Shown one piece after another: positions 1,254-48,145 of a stretch of 64,000 nt of DNA. Each line of letters opens with the position of its first letter. Positions within the stretch are counted from its first letter, which is position 1. The position numbers and the translations under genes were made by a program. The stretch is from assembly GCF_028288225.1 (NCBI RefSeq), contig NZ_JAQBOC010000039.1:1-64000 (forward strand). The letters run 5' to 3'. Origin of the DNA: Mucilaginibacter sp. (GTDB taxonomy: Bacteria; Bacteroidota; Bacteroidia; Sphingobacteriales; Sphingobacteriaceae). Below the pieces are notes generated by a model. It was not told the origin of the DNA. It saw nothing but the letters and a program-made list of their open reading frames with translations, and ran no database searches.

Positions 1254-1512
1254 TGTTTATTACCATCACGATAATTGCAATTGACTATATAGTGACACTT
1301 CCGGACGGGCCGGTCACCCTACTCAACTGTTAAATGATGTTAGCTCGCAGTAGTATGTTGATTATTTTTGGAGAGATAATAAACCTGTTCACCCGTATTA
1401 TTGCCTGATGAGACACCTCGCGCTGTTTACTTTTCTGATTGCGACATCCTATTGTATGGTAGATGAAAAGCAAACGAAGGTTGTTAGGATAGAAATATTA
1501 TAGGATTCTATT

Positions 1513-1614
1513 TGACAAAACCACAATCGTCACTTTGTCAGTATCTTGTCATGGAAAATTTTGGAAAAATTTTGGAAAAAACATGCGCTTGTCATGCTTA
1601 ATGACAAATTGTCA
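1513..1614. promoter_or_regulatory. Cluster of six TTGTCA/TGACAA boxes
   Basis: TGACAA occurs at 1513-1518 and 1602-1607; TTGTCA occurs at 1535-1540, 1546-1551, 1589-1594 and 1609-1614. The boxes at 1589 and 1601 form a perfect inverted repeat (TTGTCAT, 5-base spacer, ATGACAA), and those at 1513 and 1534 a second, wider one. Six copies of a hexamer in about 100 bases is unlikely by chance. The arrangement resembles an operator array, but the binding protein is unknown. Confidence 0.45.
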
Positions 1615-1689
1615 ATTATTTATTTTTATGAGCTAAGTAATCATCAATCATATTATTTTAAATGTCTTTTTTTTAAAAGGAGGTGAAAC

Positions 1690-1734
1690 ATGGCGGATAG
1701 TTTTATTCAAATGCCTATGCCAAAAACTCCGTGA
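1690..1734 (+). CDS. 14-codon micro-ORF behind a consensus ribosome-binding site
   Basis: The reading frame encodes MADSFIQMPMPKTP and stops with TGA. It is preceded by AAAAGGAGGTGA (1675-1686), a near-perfect Shine-Dalgarno sequence with correct spacing. That is unusual because Bacteroidota genes rarely use strong Shine-Dalgarno sites. It may be a leader peptide or a small secreted or signalling peptide, or a fortuitous match. No homology is recognised. Proline and methionine make up half of the last eight residues. Confidence 0.3.
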   Translation: MADSFIQMPMPKTP

Positions 1735-1963
1735 ATTAATTTTTTATCCTGAAGTTAATATCTGTCTTTACAACAGTCATTTTTTGTGCTTATTTATAAT
1801 ATCGTCCCAAAAAAGCAGCTAATATTTCCTTTTACACTTTTTTTGGGTTAAGAATATTTAAAATATCTATAAAAAATGAAAATACACGCGTTTTTTTTGT
1901 GAATTTAATTTTTTAATAATTTTCGTTTTTGCTGTTTTTTGACCAAAAAATATTTTATTAAAA

Positions 1964-2146
1964 ATGGCATGTTTTGTGTCGCCTCCCTGGTACAGAAAAG
2001 AATTATTTTCTTTTCTCAAAGCTATTAATCGTTTAATAAATAAATACTTAAATCCCAAAGACATGTTAGTTGTATTAGAAGTTGTTGCCTTGTTAGCAGT
2101 TATTATTTTACCATTGTTCCCTGCAAAAAAAACAGCGAATAAATAA
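1964..2146 (+). CDS. Small single-pass membrane protein, unknown function
   Basis: This encodes 60 residues. The N-terminal half is basic and amphipathic (KELFSFLKAINRLINKYLN). One hydrophobic span follows (LVVLEVVALLAVIILPLF, about residues 36-53), and the protein ends in a lysine-rich tail (AKKTANK). The layout suits a small inner-membrane protein. A clear intrinsic terminator lies about 28 bases after the stop, which supports transcription on this strand. An internal ATG at 2063 would give a 27-residue peptide that is almost only the membrane span. I do not recognise the family. The AT-rich island upstream and the TTGTCA boxes may control it (inference). Confidence 0.45.
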   Translation: MACFVSPPWYRKELFSFLKAINRLINKYLNPKDMLVVLEVVALLAVIILPLFPAKKTANK

Positions 2147-42600: not shown

Positions 42601-45060
42601 CTATTCAACCTTATATTTATAAACCAGCCTGCCCAAGTTGCCTTTGCTGTCAATACCTTCAATCTCAACCCTGTAGGTCCCGGCACCATCAGCATTAAAG
42701 AAATTAAATGCAACACTTCCATCCGCACCGGTAACTACATCGGGTTTCCAGAATATTGTGGTGCGCGTATCAGGTAGTTTTGTTGCCGGCAGTTTAACGT
42801 CATAACGTGGTGAGTAAAATTCTTTTGCTTTATAAAACCCATTTGGCGTAAGTGAATAAACACCTGGTGCCATTTCCTTGCTCACTATTGCACGGGTGGA
42901 CGATCCTTGCCTGGTAGTAATAACTATAGCACCGGCACCGCCTTCCAGGCCATAAATAGCTGCATTATTTCCTTTTAAAATTTCAACGGTTTCAACTGCC
43001 CGCGGTGCAATTGCATCAATACCATCATTGCGTGCACCCTTAGTGCCGTCAATTATAATCAACATTGGTTCGGTCATACCGCCACCTGATGTAGTTATCT
43101 GCGAAGTTTTTAAATATGGCACACCGTTTGCAAAATCAACACCGCGCGCAATGCCATTCAAAGCGGTTACAAGTGTAGGCGCATCTGCAATATCATCCCC
43201 ATGGATAACCTGGTCGGCATGGCCTGCACCTCCTAAATTTGATGATCTGTAATTATCATTCCGTTTAGGGCTTACAACCTTGTCGCCTTTTAAATACACC
43301 CTCGAATCATTACTCGCTGTTATTGCACCTGTTTTCTGACTATTTTGCAGGGAGGCAAGTATATCAGCATTTGAATTGTATTTGGCATCAATTGCGTTCT
43401 CAGCATCTATAGCAGCCCCCGGTGTAGGCGGATCAAAAGTAATAATTGCGGCTTTTTTTCCCGATGATGATTGCGTTTTAAAAACAAATCTTTCGCCTGT
43501 TTCAAATGTCAGATCTGCAAATTTAAAGCTCCCTGTTGCATCTGTTGCCGATGTTTTAACCGGGCCGCCTGAGTTTGGCAACATGGTAACCTGGGCATTT
43601 ACTATAGGAGCGCCGGCTTTATTTTTCACTTTACCGGTAATATCAATGGTGCGTTCTGGCTTGTAAGTGGCTGCCGCAGCCGGAGAGCTATCATTCAGCA
43701 GTTGTTTCCACACAAAGCGGCGATATCCATGGGTAAGCATTAAAACATCAAGATCGGCACGGGTGTCTTTAGTTATGTTTGCAAAATAATAGTTCGGCTT
43801 TTCAACGTAACCCTTTAAATCAGTAGTTAGCAGCAGATGTGTCAATATTGAATTCCCGGCGTTTTCATCAACCAAAATTTTGCTTTCATCAATAACTGAT
43901 ACCGAGAACGATCCGTTTACAGGGGTGCCTTCTTTATTTTTGGCATTAAAGTTCAACGTAATGCTTTCGCGTTTTGCAAACGACGGCTTATCAGTTTTAA
44001 GTGACAGGTTTAGCAAATCCTCGTTTTGAACAAAGGCAAGGCGCTCATTCAGTGGTTCGCCCGTTTGCGCAAATAAAGTAACCTGTAAAACCCCGGTTCT
44101 GAGCGTACCTGTGGGCAGATCGAGGCCTAATATAGCGTTATCCAGCCTAGTGCTTATTTTTTTTACCGAGCCACCCCAATATACCAGCAAGTTCAACTCT
44201 TTATTTAAGTTTTCTTTAAAATAAGCGCGGTTAGCTTTTATTTCAATTGAGATTTTTGCCGGATCGTCGCTGTTAACCGCTAAAGTAACTCCCTTTGATT
44301 CAGCCCCCGGTAAATTAACCGTGCTTTGTGAACCATCGTTATAAGTTACTTTCGCCTTATACTTTTTACCCTCTTCGGGTATAAAGTCAAATACGCCCAT
44401 CCCTAAATGAGTTGAAGCAATTTTTGCTACTTCCTTATTTTCATTATCTAAAATAACTCCTTTTACGTTTATACCTAACCCATCGGTTCCAATTGCCTTA
44501 AATGCTACTTTTGAATGGATATCTGACACCAAATTACCACCTTCGGGGAAAAACTCAATTATGGGCTGTGCAGATAGTTTTACGTCCGCGGCAATCCTGT
44601 CAACATTATTAATTGAGCTTACGGAAATATGCTGATCAAAATAATAAGCATGATCACCATTGCGCATCCAGTTGGTATAGGCCCTTATGCGGTAGCTGCC
44701 TTTTTGCAAAGTATCCGGCAATGAAAAATCGCCCCAGCCTATGCCATTAGTAAGTTGAATAGTTTTTGATTGTAATAAAGCATCGCTTTTACCTATAAGG
44801 TCAACGTGCAATATTCCGCTTATCCGCGATGGCTCATGCAACTCGCCCATCGTAACATAAGCTTTAAAATACACTACATCACCGGCTACATAAAAAGAGT
44901 ACGGCCTATCGAAATGCAAATATGCTTTTTCAATAATATGGTCGGTAATTGTACTTTGTATTTTTGAAACCGCGTTTTCTAACACCGGGCTGCTGCCCTG
45001 GCAAAAAGCCATTGCCTGAATGGAAACAAACAGCGCAATAGTAAAAAGTATTTTTTTCAT
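42601..45060 (-). CDS. Macroglobulin-like / TonB-plug outer-membrane protein
   Basis: This encodes 819 residues. A signal peptide ends MAFCQG. The N-terminal half has an MG2-like macroglobulin start (IIEKAYLHFDRPYSFYVAGD, KGSYRIRAYTNWMRNGDHAYYF) and further beta domains. A carboxypeptidase-regulatory-like domain lies about 470-560 (TIDITGKVKNKAGAPIVNAQV). A TonB plug-like domain lies about 610-730 (GGGMTEPMLIIIDG, VETVEILKGNNAAIYG), and a short C-terminal domain ends VYKYKVE. No barrel is present, so it cannot be a channel alone. It is the last gene of the minus-strand cluster with the GG-leader peptide, and a 3' relic of a paralogue lies at 47434-47490. Confidence 0.8.
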   Translation of the reverse strand: MKKILFTIALFVSIQAMAFCQGSSPVLENAVSKIQSTITDHIIEKAYLHFDRPYSFYVAGDVVYFKAYVTMGELHEPSRISGILHVDLIGKSDALLQSKTIQLTNGIGWGDFSLPDTLQKGSYRIRAYTNWMRNGDHAYYFDQHISVSSINNVDRIAADVKLSAQPIIEFFPEGGNLVSDIHSKVAFKAIGTDGLGINVKGVILDNENKEVAKIASTHLGMGVFDFIPEEGKKYKAKVTYNDGSQSTVNLPGAESKGVTLAVNSDDPAKISIEIKANRAYFKENLNKELNLLVYWGGSVKKISTRLDNAILGLDLPTGTLRTGVLQVTLFAQTGEPLNERLAFVQNEDLLNLSLKTDKPSFAKRESITLNFNAKNKEGTPVNGSFSVSVIDESKILVDENAGNSILTHLLLTTDLKGYVEKPNYYFANITKDTRADLDVLMLTHGYRRFVWKQLLNDSSPAAAATYKPERTIDITGKVKNKAGAPIVNAQVTMLPNSGGPVKTSATDATGSFKFADLTFETGERFVFKTQSSSGKKAAIITFDPPTPGAAIDAENAIDAKYNSNADILASLQNSQKTGAITASNDSRVYLKGDKVVSPKRNDNYRSSNLGGAGHADQVIHGDDIADAPTLVTALNGIARGVDFANGVPYLKTSQITTSGGGMTEPMLIIIDGTKGARNDGIDAIAPRAVETVEILKGNNAAIYGLEGGAGAIVITTRQGSSTRAIVSKEMAPGVYSLTPNGFYKAKEFYSPRYDVKLPATKLPDTRTTIFWKPDVVTGADGSVAFNFFNADGAGTYRVEIEGIDSKGNLGRLVYKYKVE

Positions 45061-45400
45061 CGGAGTAATTTATTTATGAACGATATTATTAATTCCAGTT
45101 GAAGATAATTATGATTAGATGCAACCAATAAGTTAATTAATACAATACTTATAATATTAATCCTTTATTAAAATAAAGACTAACTAAGTGTAGAACAAGG
45201 CATTGATAAGAAACTATACCGGTGGTTTATATTGGGTGCTTAAATATACTTATCTTTTTAAAAAGAAAAAATATTTATTTGAGGAAGAGGAAAAAGAGAG
45301 TCAGGAATCAAGAAGTTAAGATGCAAGAAAAAGTCAGAAGCGTTTATCAAATGCCTGGTAGTTAGTAATTAACTACCAGGCATTAATAAGAAAAGTTACA
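45061..45400. other. Intergenic region after the GG-leader peptide gene
   Basis: This 340-base gap separates the peptide gene from the macroglobulin/TonB gene. It contains the long hairpin at 45350-45384 and GAGTCAGGAATCAAGAAG words near 45298 that belong to the CAAGAATC repeat family. No gene is seen. Confidence 0.55.
45350..45384 (-). terminator. Perfect 14-base hairpin downstream of the peptide gene
   Basis: AATGCCTGGTAGTT (45350-45363) pairs with AACTACCAGGCATT (45371-45384), loop of seven bases. On the minus strand it is followed by only a short T run, so it may be a weak terminator or an mRNA-stabilising 3' structure that leaves part of the message to reach the macroglobulin/TonB gene. 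Confidence 0.6.
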
Positions 45401-45607
45401 TTATGCCAAACAAGGACAACGGGTTTCATCTCCTGAATAGGCATATCTTACAAATGTACCTGTTGTGCAATAAGGGCATGGAGTACATGGGCTTAATTCC
45501 TGGGTTTGAGTACCATTTACATTACAGATAAGCCAAACCTGGTTTTGCCCGATCCCGCCTGTAACATTCTTCATTTCATCTCTGCTTAATTTTTGTTGCT
45601 TTTTCAT
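45401..45607 (-). CDS. GG-leader peptide with six cysteines
   Basis: This encodes 68 residues. The leader MKKQQKLSRDEMKNVTGG ends in a double glycine at 17-18, matching the leaders of Bacteroidota peptides exported by C39-peptidase ABC transporters (KLSRDEMKNVTGG-type). The core has Cys28, Cys41, Cys44, Cys47, Cys64 and Cys66, the even number expected for three disulfides; PCTPCPYC is the most concentrated patch. It is a probable secreted bacteriocin-like or signalling peptide. No lanthipeptide, sactipeptide or other tailoring enzyme is in view. The gene directly follows a C39-like/VKOR/thioredoxin gene (103-base gap), which fits oxidative maturation. Confidence 0.75.
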   Translation of the reverse strand: MKKQQKLSRDEMKNVTGGIGQNQVWLICNVNGTQTQELSPCTPCPYCTTGTFVRYAYSGDETRCPCLA

Positions 45608-45710
45608 ATAAGGGTATTTTTTAGTTTTTTACCGGTAACACCCCGGCTGGTGGCATGCATTTTAAAGTACATACTCCTTTACTTTTGTGCACAAAGTATC
45701 TTTATATGCT

Positions 45711-47300
45711 TTATTCAAGCATGTATTTTAAATCGGGCAGCTGGTATAGATCAGGCAGGCGGTAACCGTTAAGCAGCATTGTTGGCGTAGCGGTAACCTC
45801 TGCCATTTCACACCATACTTTTTGTTTATCAAGCTTCTGAAAATCAGCCTCAATTAATTGTACGGGATAAACCTTTGCCCAGGCTTCGTAACTCTTTTGT
45901 TTTTGTTCGTACCAATCATGCAGGGCTTGTTTTACAATTGTTTTATCGGGTTGCTGATTCAGAGCCATCAGGTGGCGGCTTACGGGGGTTTTTATATCTT
46001 CATCAGTATTATTGGCGGTAAAAACTATTCGGGCCTGTATATCGTCACGCTGCTCAAGCAATTCAGTTAATTGATTATGGGCTTTGGCACAAGGCCCGCA
46101 ATAAGGATTACTTACCATTGTAATAATATTATTAGCCCCTACATTACCTAAAACAATACTCCACGCATCATCAGGCTGGGCATACTTGGGTTGCGCCGTT
46201 AATGTATTATTAAACAGGTCGGTATTGTATTTAAATTTACGCAGCTGCTGTTTTAAAGGCAGCATTTGCTGAAGCTTTAAGAACAGGGGTTTCAATAGTA
46301 GCCATAAAATAACGGGGATAAGGAGGCAAATAATAATGGTTGCCAAGCTCTGACCCTTTCTAAAAGCAATAGAGAAGGTTTGAATATTAGTAACCAATGA
46401 AATAAACTCCAGCCATAACAATGCCTGTACTGTGCAACATAACACGCACCATTGTTTTGCTACGCGGGCCTGGTAGTAAACAGAATAAAAAGTATATGGC
46501 AAGCTAACAATATTTAAAATTGCCAATGTCCACCAAATTATTGCTGAGCCGCCGCCAAACAATAACAGCAGCCAGGTGCCTGCAAAATAAAAAAAGCCTA
46601 CCTCGCTCCAGGTAAGCCCCTCAAATACTTTTGCTGCTTTCGACGATAATATAGCGTTACAATTGGTTTTGGTACCACCTTGACAAAGCTTTTGCACCAG
46701 CGGGTTATTACTGTCTATTGATTGTACCAGTAATAATATAGATGTAATTAATCCAGCAGTTTTAAAAATGGTTAATAAAGCTGTTTGCCAGTTTACGTTA
46801 ATAAAATAACCATTACTAAAAAGCGCTGATCCCAGGATCATTAGTAACCCTGCCGCTATTGCCGGAGCTTTTATTGCAGATAAAGTTGATGAAAGTGTTT
46901 TAGTGGTTATAAAACCTGCAGAAGGTTCGGCAGTTAAAACAATGCCTTTGAATAGCTTTTTAAATTCATCAAGACTTAGCTTATGGTTGTTCCATTTTTC
47001 GCTTGATACCCTTACCTTATCTCCATCAATTTTATTTACCACTAAAAAATCACCACTGTTAATATTAGTATGAGCTATAAACGGACAGGGTACATTGAGC
47101 AGGTTTTCCTGGTCTACACGGTAAGCAGCATTTTCAATATTAAATGCGTTTAGTACATCGCTAATTGCCAGCAGACTTGGGTAATCGGGATGCTTTTCTA
47201 ATTCGGCGATGATAGTTTCGGGCTCAATATTAATTGATAAGCCCTTTAATAATTTGTTAACAGCCGCGTCGGGGTTTTGATAGTTAGTAAATGAGAGCAT
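45711..47300 (-). CDS. C39-like / VKOR / thioredoxin fusion protein
   Basis: This encodes 529 residues. Residues about 1-125 resemble a C39 peptidase (EKHPDYPSLLAISDVLNAFNI, then VPCPFIAH and GDFLVVNK), but the N-terminal catalytic cysteine is missing, so it probably only binds a leader. Residues about 140-345 are a VKOR membrane domain of several spans with loop cysteines Cys206 and Cys214 and the active CVLC (Cys285, Cys288). Residues about 375-529 form a periplasmic thioredoxin/DsbA-like domain with NPYCGPC (Cys401, Cys404) and a cis-Pro loop VTATPTM. Such a protein passes electrons from substrate thiols to quinone. It is encoded next to the six-cysteine GG peptide, its likely client (inference). 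Confidence 0.85.
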   Translation of the reverse strand: MLSFTNYQNPDAAVNKLLKGLSINIEPETIIAELEKHPDYPSLLAISDVLNAFNIENAAYRVDQENLLNVPCPFIAHTNINSGDFLVVNKIDGDKVRVSSEKWNNHKLSLDEFKKLFKGIVLTAEPSAGFITTKTLSSTLSAIKAPAIAAGLLMILGSALFSNGYFINVNWQTALLTIFKTAGLITSILLLVQSIDSNNPLVQKLCQGGTKTNCNAILSSKAAKVFEGLTWSEVGFFYFAGTWLLLLFGGGSAIIWWTLAILNIVSLPYTFYSVYYQARVAKQWCVLCCTVQALLWLEFISLVTNIQTFSIAFRKGQSLATIIICLLIPVILWLLLKPLFLKLQQMLPLKQQLRKFKYNTDLFNNTLTAQPKYAQPDDAWSIVLGNVGANNIITMVSNPYCGPCAKAHNQLTELLEQRDDIQARIVFTANNTDEDIKTPVSRHLMALNQQPDKTIVKQALHDWYEQKQKSYEAWAKVYPVQLIEADFQKLDKQKVWCEMAEVTATPTMLLNGYRLPDLYQLPDLKYMLE

Positions 47301-47433
47301 AAGGCCAGGTTTATTATTTTTTTATTGCATTAAAGGTATATCTCTTAAAGCAATAAATAAAGATAGTGAATAAATTGTTTGTATTTAATAATGCAACAAG
47401 GACAATTTTCAGAATAATATTTTTCGTTTAACG

Positions 47434-47490
47434 CTACTCCACCTTATATCTAAACACCTGCCGCCCTAAATTACCATCCGCATCAATACC
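47434..47490 (-). pseudogene. 3' relic of a second macroglobulin/TonB gene
   Basis: On the minus strand these bases encode GIDADGNLGRQVFRYKVE and a stop. The end of the intact gene at 42601 encodes GIDSKGNLGRLVYKYKVE and a stop, so 14 of 18 residues agree. The relic overlaps the last codons of the ABC ATPase gene in another frame. A deletion apparently joined the ATPase gene to the tail of a lost paralogue. Confidence 0.7.
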
Positions 47491-48145
47491 CAATCCTAAT
47501 ATATCCTAATTCCTCCAAATCTTCAACAGTTTTAGTTAGGTGTGTGCGGCCATCCTTCAATAAATATACCGTATCACTTATATCAAGCAGGTGAGTGTAC
47601 ATGTGGTCGGTTATTAAAAAGCCTTTGTTAGCTTTTTCTTCCAGCAAAAACTCTTTGATGTTCTCTATCTGGATGGGATTCAAATGCGTAAAAGGCTCAT
47701 CAAGCATGGCAAACAGCGACGGGGCTTTTACAACAATGTATAGTTCAAGGGTACGCCATTGGCCGCCGGAGAGCTGGTTTACTTTCAGATCGTATCTTGA
47801 TTTAAATTCAGGGAAACGATTTTCCAAATCTGCTACAGATAACTCAAAATCACCCAAAACTTTTTTTACGGTAAGGCTTTTAGGTATAAAATTAAACTGG
47901 GGCAGGTACAATAACAGATCGGGCCGCTTGTTTACTTTATGGGTAACATTCCCATCAAACCTGATGGAATTAATGGAGGCATTTAATGTGCCGAGTATAA
48001 TGTTCATTAAACAGGTTTTACCCTGCCCGTTGCGGCCCAGCAGACCGGATATTTTACCGGTTTCGCACTTTAAATAAACATCAGACAGGATGCGCCTTAC
48101 GCCAAAATCAAGCTGGATGCCATCTGCTTCAAGGGTGTGGATCAT
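47483..48145 (-). CDS. Stand-alone ABC transporter ATPase
   Basis: This encodes 220 residues. Walker A is GLLGRNGQGKTCL, the signature is NQLSGGQWRTLEL, Walker B is LFAMLDEPF and the switch His is in ITDHMY. The order and spacing are those of a complete nucleotide-binding domain. No permease is fused. The nearest membrane proteins are the 100-residue protein upstream and the VKOR fusion downstream. The final codons (RIGY, stop) are shared with the relic of the macroglobulin/TonB gene, so the original C-terminus may have been altered. Confidence 0.88.
   Translation of the reverse strand: MIHTLEADGIQLDFGVRRILSDVYLKCETGKISGLLGRNGQGKTCLMNIILGTLNASINSIRFDGNVTHKVNKRPDLLLYLPQFNFIPKSLTVKKVLGDFELSVADLENRFPEFKSRYDLKVNQLSGGQWRTLELYIVVKAPSLFAMLDEPFTHLNPIQIENIKEFLLEEKANKGFLITDHMYTHLLDISDTVYLLKDGRTHLTKTVEDLEELGYIRIGY

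Follow-up and report, generated by a model that had tools for sequence, protein, structure and literature searches.

Bacteria usually make disulfides on the side of the membrane opposite the cytoplasm, and in VKOR enzymes the loop cysteine pair, the CXXC motif and the thioredoxin partner all lie on one face. Here we describe a fusion of a C39-like, a VKOR and a DsbA-like domain, encoded beside a cysteine-rich peptide with a double-glycine (GG) leader in 64,000 nucleotides of Mucilaginibacter sp. (RefSeq assembly GCF_028288225.1, contig NZ_JAQBOC010000039.1, positions 1 to 64,000, forward strand; hereafter, the window). In this soil bacterium and many of its relatives, the fusion appears to be a membrane enzyme that catches the leaders of secreted peptides and adds disulfides inside the cell. 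The Synechococcus VKOR–thioredoxin fusion (PDB 4nv2/4nv5) shares with it the VKOR bundle, a further helix, a thioredoxin-fold partner, the loop cysteine pair and the CXXC motif; it differs in having no C39-like domain, and the extra first helix of the window fusion would reverse the orientation. Hibender (2017) is said to have described a cytoplasm-facing VKOR in Aeropyrum pernix, with VKOR-promoted disulfides in two compartments; this enzyme reportedly differs from the fusion in being archaeal and tied to no peptide leader or exporter.

Several peptide and exporter systems share single elements with the locus. According to the available text of PMC6671954, deletion of the oxidoreductase attenuates the activity of bacteroidetocins, class IIf bacteriocins of Bacteroidales, and the authors infer that it makes disulfides. 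Like the fusion loci, the bacteroidetocin loci encode a GG-leader cysteine peptide together with a C39-type exporter and a thiol oxidoreductase, but the latter has a gene of its own, as has a five-helix membrane protein (PMC6671954); the main text uses neither of the terms VKOR and C39, and its available portion mentions no cytoplasmic side. The window does not hold this set of four genes (five-helix protein, peptide, thiol oxidoreductase and C39 exporter), because it has no exporter and its scanned neighbours include no separate oxidoreductase. The C39-like domain (CLD) of HlyB (PDB 3zua) is, like the N-terminal part of the fusion, an inactive C39 fold without the catalytic cysteine, and is proposed to recruit the substrate; it is part of the type I exporter itself, whereas the window domain is joined to a redox enzyme, in a protein distinct from the exporter (PMC6363468, in the portion available). 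TMcin resembles the window peptide system in being a ribosomally synthesized and post-translationally modified peptide that needs a dedicated DsbA-family protein, TmcD, for its disulfide to form correctly; it differs in being a staphylococcal transmembrane peptide with a separate TmcD, and a C39–VKOR fusion goes unmentioned in the accessible part of that source (PMC13252029). The word VKOR does not occur in the available text of PMC10352776 or PMC12181424.

In the open-access literature, which leaves subscription journals mostly outside, we found no description of such a fusion or of a leader-guided cytoplasmic VKOR. Precedents exist for pairing a GG peptide with an exporter and a thiol oxidoreductase (bacteroidetocins), for a dedicated DsbA-family protein (TMcin) and, reportedly, for a two-compartment VKOR (Aeropyrum). 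New here is a helix ahead of the VKOR bundle, which would put the C39-like, VKOR and DsbA-like parts on one side of the membrane, probably the cytoplasmic one.

RESULTS

The fusion joins an inactive C39-like domain to a predicted redox relay

The fusion (529 residues, 45711..47300, minus strand) is followed, after a gap of 103 nt, by the precursor peptide (68 residues, 45401-45607, minus strand). The peptide carries the two glycines at residues 17-18 and consists of a leader (residues 1-18, 45554..45607) and a core with six cysteines (residues 19-68, 45404..45553). The open reading frames (ORFs) and the Pfam domains confirm this pairing as the initial annotation had described it; Pfam, run on window proteins without their first methionine, finds Peptidase_C39 (E 1.1e-14), VKOR (E 2.9e-15) and Thioredoxin_4 (E 4.4e-7) in the fusion.

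Relatives of the fusion were collected from the family, in which 77 of 251 genomes carry it at E ≤ 1e-20. From this search, leaving aside short fragments and the matches that ranked lowest, we took 80 regions that extend about 8 kb to either side, or less where a contig ends. The window and a second copy in the window genome bring the total to 82 loci, in all of which the fusion ORF is 450 residues or longer.

The C39-like domain (residues 5-125, 46926..47288, minus strand) was said from the outset to lack a catalytic cysteine. Indeed, the position is Asn9 in the window fusion, and across the 82 fusions it is Asn in 73, Pro in 3, Asp in 3, Ser in 2, Gly in 1 and Cys in none, while all 62 neighbouring exporters keep the cysteine. 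The catalytic histidine is present in 1/82 fusions versus 62/62 exporters, and the aspartate in 45/82 versus 62/62. Judged by its sequence, the N-terminal domain is therefore not an active PCAT-type Peptidase C39, the catalytic cysteine and histidine being gone; as a C39 fold without the catalytic cysteine, it is a CLD.

In the redox part, Cys206, Cys214, Cys285, Cys288, Cys401, Cys404 and His408 are kept in 82/82 fusions. Cys206/214 and the CVLC motif (285-288) belong to the VKOR four-helix bundle (residues 164-309, 46374..46811, minus strand), and the CGPC motif (401-404) and His408 to the C-terminal domain (residues 370-529, 45714..46193, minus strand). Lys180, which lies midway along the first VKOR helix, hardly varies; a lysine at such a place within a membrane helix is unusual.

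An AlphaFold2 single-chain model of the fusion, based on a 64-sequence alignment, has a mean pLDDT of 86.1 and a pTM of 0.62. Compared with solved structures, and with a Foldseek listing alongside, the model matches C39 domains at residues 5-139, VKOR at 164-309 and ScsC/DsbA at 370-529. Specifically, its C39 part aligns with 6mpz, a C39 domain with bound leader, at Z 16.4 and a root-mean-square deviation (rmsd) of 2.4 over 122 residues, which upholds the C39 fold proposed for the N-terminal domain, and with 3zua at Z 13.8 and rmsd 4.2 over 127 residues. The VKOR part, which has the four-helix bundle, loop cysteine pair and CXXC motif typical of VKOR, aligns with 6wv7 at Z 14.5 and rmsd 2.8 over 140 residues, and with Synechococcus 4nv2 at Z 13.3. 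The C-terminal domain aligns with ScsC (5id4) at Z 17.9 and rmsd 2.8 over 154 residues, and with BdbD (3eu3) at Z 15.1; its CXXC lies in a thioredoxin fold with inserted helices, as in DsbA. The domain had been called a CGPC thioredoxin: the motif and the fold stand, but in structure it is closer to DsbA/ScsC than to a plain thioredoxin.

An extra helix probably places the redox sites on the side of the C39-like domain

The model has long helices at residues 137-162, 171-195, 231-249, 253-280, 286-304 and 317-344, which coincide with six hydrophobic stretches of the family profile. Model residues 170-309 align with residues 17-154 of Synechococcus VKOR, which leaves helix 137-162 (46815..46892, minus strand) as an added transmembrane helix, predicted to reverse the VKOR orientation. 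The last transmembrane helix (317-344, 46269..46352, minus strand) is followed by a strongly positive stretch. With one helix added before the bundle, the C39-like domain would therefore lie on the same face as the VKOR sites and the DsbA-like domain. The C39 domains of exporters are cytoplasmic.

The distribution of charges was compared in 104 fusions, namely the 82 family loci and 22 more. On the redox face, the four segments have 0.11-0.28 lysine plus arginine (K+R) per residue, versus 0.02-0.035 in the three opposite segments, with the same direction in 104/104 fusions. In an alignment-free control, we compared K+R in the 13 residues before the CXXC motif with K+R in the loop between transmembrane helices 2 and 3 (TM2-TM3). 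The former is higher in 102/104 fusions and lower in 24/26 VKORs of the phylum without C39, which are stand-alone or VKOR–thioredoxin proteins (30 loci minus three fusions and one without the pattern). The one control with the reversed pattern is a 161-residue stand-alone VKOR (L231, ORF 1483-1968, minus strand) with two K/R before CXXC and none in the TM2-TM3 loop. The extra helix reaches the hydropathy threshold in 102/104 fusions.

The charge distribution, the helix count and the cytoplasmic C39 domains of exporters together argue strongly that the redox sites and the C39-like domain of the fusion face the cytoplasm. The active site would then not lie on the outer face, where bacterial VKORs canonically have it, and oxidation before export, the order that the initial annotation had suggested and that a periplasm-facing VKOR would have spoken against, becomes possible, as helix count and charges would put VKOR inside.

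The peptides combine a conserved leader with unrelated cores of mostly even cysteine number

The peptide set comprises 197 unique small ORFs with the leader pattern, taken without a cysteine filter from 182 loci (the 82 fusion loci, L133-L212 and L243-L262, some of which are identical places). Their cores contain 1 (6 peptides), 2 (3), 3 (2), 4 (24), 5 (1), 6 (126), 7 (1), 8 (31), 9 (1) or 10 (2) cysteines. The number is even in 186/197, in line with the even number expected earlier, and even clusters outnumber odd ones by 67 to 5 (n=72), versus 50% even when residues are shuffled among cores. With at least three cysteines, 183/188 leader peptides are even versus 501/1484 other small ORFs of the 82 loci, the latter being drawn from all six frames and mostly not genes. 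Six of the 197 have one cysteine and an FKRK stretch (L078 7260-7442, L082 7141-7338, L094 7279-7458, L097 10119-10304, L115 10150-10332 and L193 7313-7492); they were counted despite resembling another peptide class, and these GG-leader peptides near fusions are likely a separate ribosomal class.

In 400 random pairs from 56 peptides, leaders are 54% identical, versus 25% for cores stripped of cysteines, equal to the 25% of shuffled cores. The spacing of the cysteines differs widely from core to core. Relatives of the window core (L135, L136, L137 and L049) keep all six cysteines, and unrelated cores sit beside close orthologues of the window fusion. Unrelated cores behind a conserved leader are the outcome expected of a leader-reading enzyme whose substrates are interchangeable.

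With positions -12 and -8 left unconstrained, the same 56 peptides have Leu at -12 in 53 and Glu/Gln at -8 in 52; Met/Leu at -7 and Val/Ile at -4 occur in all 56, both partly imposed by the search motif. The window leader has L, E, M and V at these four positions, and the peptides thus show the double-glycine leader pattern (L-12, E-8, L/M-7, V/I-4, GG). In the available portion of PMC6363468, the C39 recognition consensus is Leu(-12), Glu(-8) and Leu(-7), with groove contacts from Val-4, Leu-7 and Leu-12, and the pattern of the fusion-linked peptides agrees with it. Leader binding by the C39-like domain, as predicted, would fit this known mode of recognition. The window peptide scores 27.4 bits against NCBIfam NF047798 ('leader_Chryseo, bacteriocin-like protein'; curated cut-off 23.5). 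A weak match of the peptide to a zinc-finger family (E 0.0089) stays below the cut-off, and a Pfam scan assigns it to no family.

Fusion and peptide are linked in strand, position and genome content

ORFs with the GG motif and at least four core cysteines occur 0-300 bp downstream of the fusion on the same strand in 53/82 loci (2.17 per kb); none occurs on the opposite strand in that interval, nor within 0-1 kb upstream on either strand. Because the strict leader pattern misses variants ending in AG and miscalled starts, strict and loose counts were both used, and with wider patterns a cysteine-containing leader peptide lies within 3 kb downstream on the same strand in 68/82 loci. The pairing of fusion and peptide is not due to chance, and the conserved neighbourhood that had been predicted is present. 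A C39 exporter is found within 7 kb in 61/82 loci and HlyD in 50/82.

Across the 251 family genomes, the fusion and a leader profile are each found in 77, and 71 genomes have both (odds ratio 331, p 1e-47, a value that overstates the association because the profile was made from fusion-adjacent peptides and the genomes are related). C39 domains overall, fusions included, are far wider (163/251 genomes at E ≤ 1e-10), so the exporter alone does not bring the leader. Beyond the family, a VKOR search of 296 genomes of the phylum supplied 20 regions, selected on the size of their open frames, and all 20 hold fusions. Among the 23 extra-family fusions with over 300 matched positions, 10 are accompanied within 3 kb by a strict-leader peptide and three (L249, L253 and L256) by loose-pattern peptides only; the strict-leader peptide of L251 has three cysteines. 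Partial or split extra fusion copies in L102, L109, L095 and L066 suggest duplication and decay of peptide–fusion pairs, a cysteine-rich leader peptide lying about 100 bp from the partial copy in L102, L109 and L066.

Other neighbours recur less often. A LytTR-type regulator cluster and a cluster with a weak glycosyltransferase-25 match are each present in 17/82 loci. Clusters whose representatives match glycosyltransferases occur in 17, 6 and 6 of the 82 loci, and one whose representative has a LANC_like match below the cut-off (19.6 versus 23.2 bits) in 6/82 (L119 10083-11435, L112 3906-5795, L123 3275-4981 and L120 13844-14836; 17, 6, 6 and 6 loci). Some leader peptides may accordingly bear further modifications.

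Surroundings in the window and the rest of the genome

The two outer genes of the locus also lie on the minus strand, as do all four ORFs of the window's ORF list discussed here. An ABC ATPase (220 residues, 47483-48145) precedes the fusion and an MG2/CarboxypepD/plug protein (819 residues, 42601-45060) follows the peptide. The position and strand of this ATPase and macroglobulin/plug protein were annotated correctly, but neither is a recurrent member, and both were rejected as parts of the system, being present in only 3/82 and 8/82 fusion loci. The ATPase and its upstream genes are common only to the relatives L049 and L051, and it therefore reads as chromosomal background. Upstream of this lone ATPase, which is near a fusion in two to three relatives, are a 100-residue membrane protein and an MFS gene. 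In a scan against an anti-phage library, the fusion, the peptide and the plug protein had no match and the ATPase gave ATPase-type matches only.

The host assembly spans 6.77 Mb, is split into 96 contigs and shows 6.11% contamination; the nearest relatives found are Mucilaginibacter. The genome contains a second fusion, 39% identical to that of the window; downstream of it, in the same orientation, lie two GG peptides, both with eight core cysteines, and a protein with a thioredoxin/redoxin domain. Another five GG peptides, which have 4 or 6 core cysteines (counted by eye), lie away from both fusions (L014 5862-6056, L015 6631-6816 and 6877-7059, L016 6448-6654, and L017 6067-6285). In the window only the fusion matches a C39 search, and the cleavage and export elsewhere that had been proposed have a candidate in the one genuine C39 exporter of the genome (motif QMDCGPTCL), which adjoins an HlyD protein on contig C60. 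A DsbB search of the genome gave no match, and a VKOR search gave none above the cut-off besides the two fusions, with two weak matches below it.

DISCUSSION

Our analysis supports, at the level of sequence and predicted structure, the interpretation of the initial annotation that the fusion captures the leader and oxidises the core before export. We consider it probable that the fusion is a dedicated, leader-guided, quinone-coupled disulfide maturase that faces the cytoplasm and acts on GG-leader cysteine-rich peptides before they are exported. In this mechanism, the inactive C39-like domain would act in the cytoplasm, where it would bind the leader helix (L-12, E/Q-8, M/L-7, V/I-4) but leave it uncut, and the DsbA-like domain, tethered on that face too, would oxidise paired core cysteines with its CGPC site. 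The reduced CGPC would be re-oxidised through the VKOR loop cysteines 206/214 and CVLC, with electrons passing to membrane quinone. The disulfide-bonded precursor would then go to a C39 exporter (PCAT with HlyD), which would cut the leader and secrete the core; in the window genome the contig C60 exporter may serve both fusions and several peptides. The product may have an antibacterial or signalling role.

Several observations weigh against this mechanism. The K+R totals per protein (13.9 on the redox face versus 0.8 on the other) are inflated by segment length (about 80 versus 26 residues), and the densities are the fairer measure; two of the 26 controls depart from the canonical charge pattern (one reversed, one a tie), and several controls are near-duplicates. 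The extra helix is modelled with moderate confidence (pLDDT 59-77 by block, pTM 0.62), and VKOR helices 2 and 3 reach the hydropathy threshold in just 59/104 and 56/104 fusions, although a hairpin there would leave the side of the redox sites unchanged. In 14/82 loci no peptide was recognised within 3 kb, ten of these having an exporter near, and for 10 of the 23 extra-family fusions no peptide of either pattern, strict or loose, lies within that distance. TlpA-like thioredoxins in 45/82 loci mean that periplasmic thiol chemistry may take part. The co-occurrence of leader and fusion is partly circular, as the profile was built from fusion-adjacent peptides, and six genomes have leader matches without a fusion at the threshold used. 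When these six were searched with the fusion profile, two gave nothing, three gave exporter-sized frames only, and the sixth gave an exporter match and a short match to the N-terminal part of the fusion. In four inspected leader-only genomes, one of them carrying the short N-terminal match and another being a 3-kb contig, 9/10 leader peptides have even core cysteines; a fusion in the same genome is thus not strictly needed.

The alternative that the enzyme is periplasmic, its C39-like domain merely docking near the exporter while disulfides form during or after export, is rather unlikely. The well-known bacterial VKOR/DsbA systems do act outside the cytoplasm, and TlpA-like proteins recur in the loci, the TlpA/redoxin-like cluster (L018 7193-8341 and its members) having a hydrophobic N-terminus in 54/62; however, six helices put the C39-like, VKOR and DsbA-like sites on one side, so that a 125-residue N-terminal domain would have to be exported without a recognised signal and 104/104 proteins would have to run against the positive-inside rule. 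It is very unlikely that the fusion acts as a redox gate or isomerase, holding or shuffling precursor disulfides or controlling the exporter rather than making bonds. ScsC is the closest structural match of the DsbA-like domain, and DsbG and DsbC chains are matched too, but the fusion carries a VKOR of its own, and the presence of all four redox cysteines of that VKOR in 82/82 fusions points to net oxidation.

A general housekeeping thiol oxidase with an incidental GG-peptide neighbourhood might be read from the 14 loci without a recognised peptide, and several substrates are conceivable; the linkage specific in strand and position, the 71 of 77 genomes common to fusion and leader, a C39-like domain matched to GG leaders and the patchy presence in the family (77/251) make it highly improbable. 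Finally, the peptide cysteines might bind metal, or receive other cross-links or glycosylation, with the fusion unrelated or one of several tailoring enzymes. Metal sites, too, have even cysteine counts, and the weak zinc-finger match and the LANC_like and glycosyltransferase clusters point that way, but the cysteine spacing differs widely among cores and such neighbours are found in a minority of loci and nowhere in the window neighbourhood as scanned. Representatives of ten of the 13 commonest neighbour clusters, one scanned from each, gave no match to LanM, LanB or radical-SAM either, and we regard such modification in place of fusion-made disulfides as extremely improbable.

For the leader-guided cytoplasmic maturase, a broader reading is somewhat favoured: a class of ribosomal peptides, widespread in Bacteroidota, would have one membrane protein as its main recurrent tailoring enzyme, which reads the leader, forms disulfides in the reducing cytoplasm and passes electrons through an inverted VKOR to the quinone pool; the peptide would accordingly fold first and lose its leader and be exported afterwards. 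If true, this would be a natural, substrate-addressed form of cytoplasmic disulfide formation in bacteria, achieved by tethering instead of altering the whole compartment, and could offer a compact tool with which laboratory E. coli might produce disulfide-rich peptides. It would also provide a signature for finding a large peptide family in Bacteroidota, and would explain how a bacterium without a DsbB match or a usual VKOR comes to have disulfide-rich secreted peptides.

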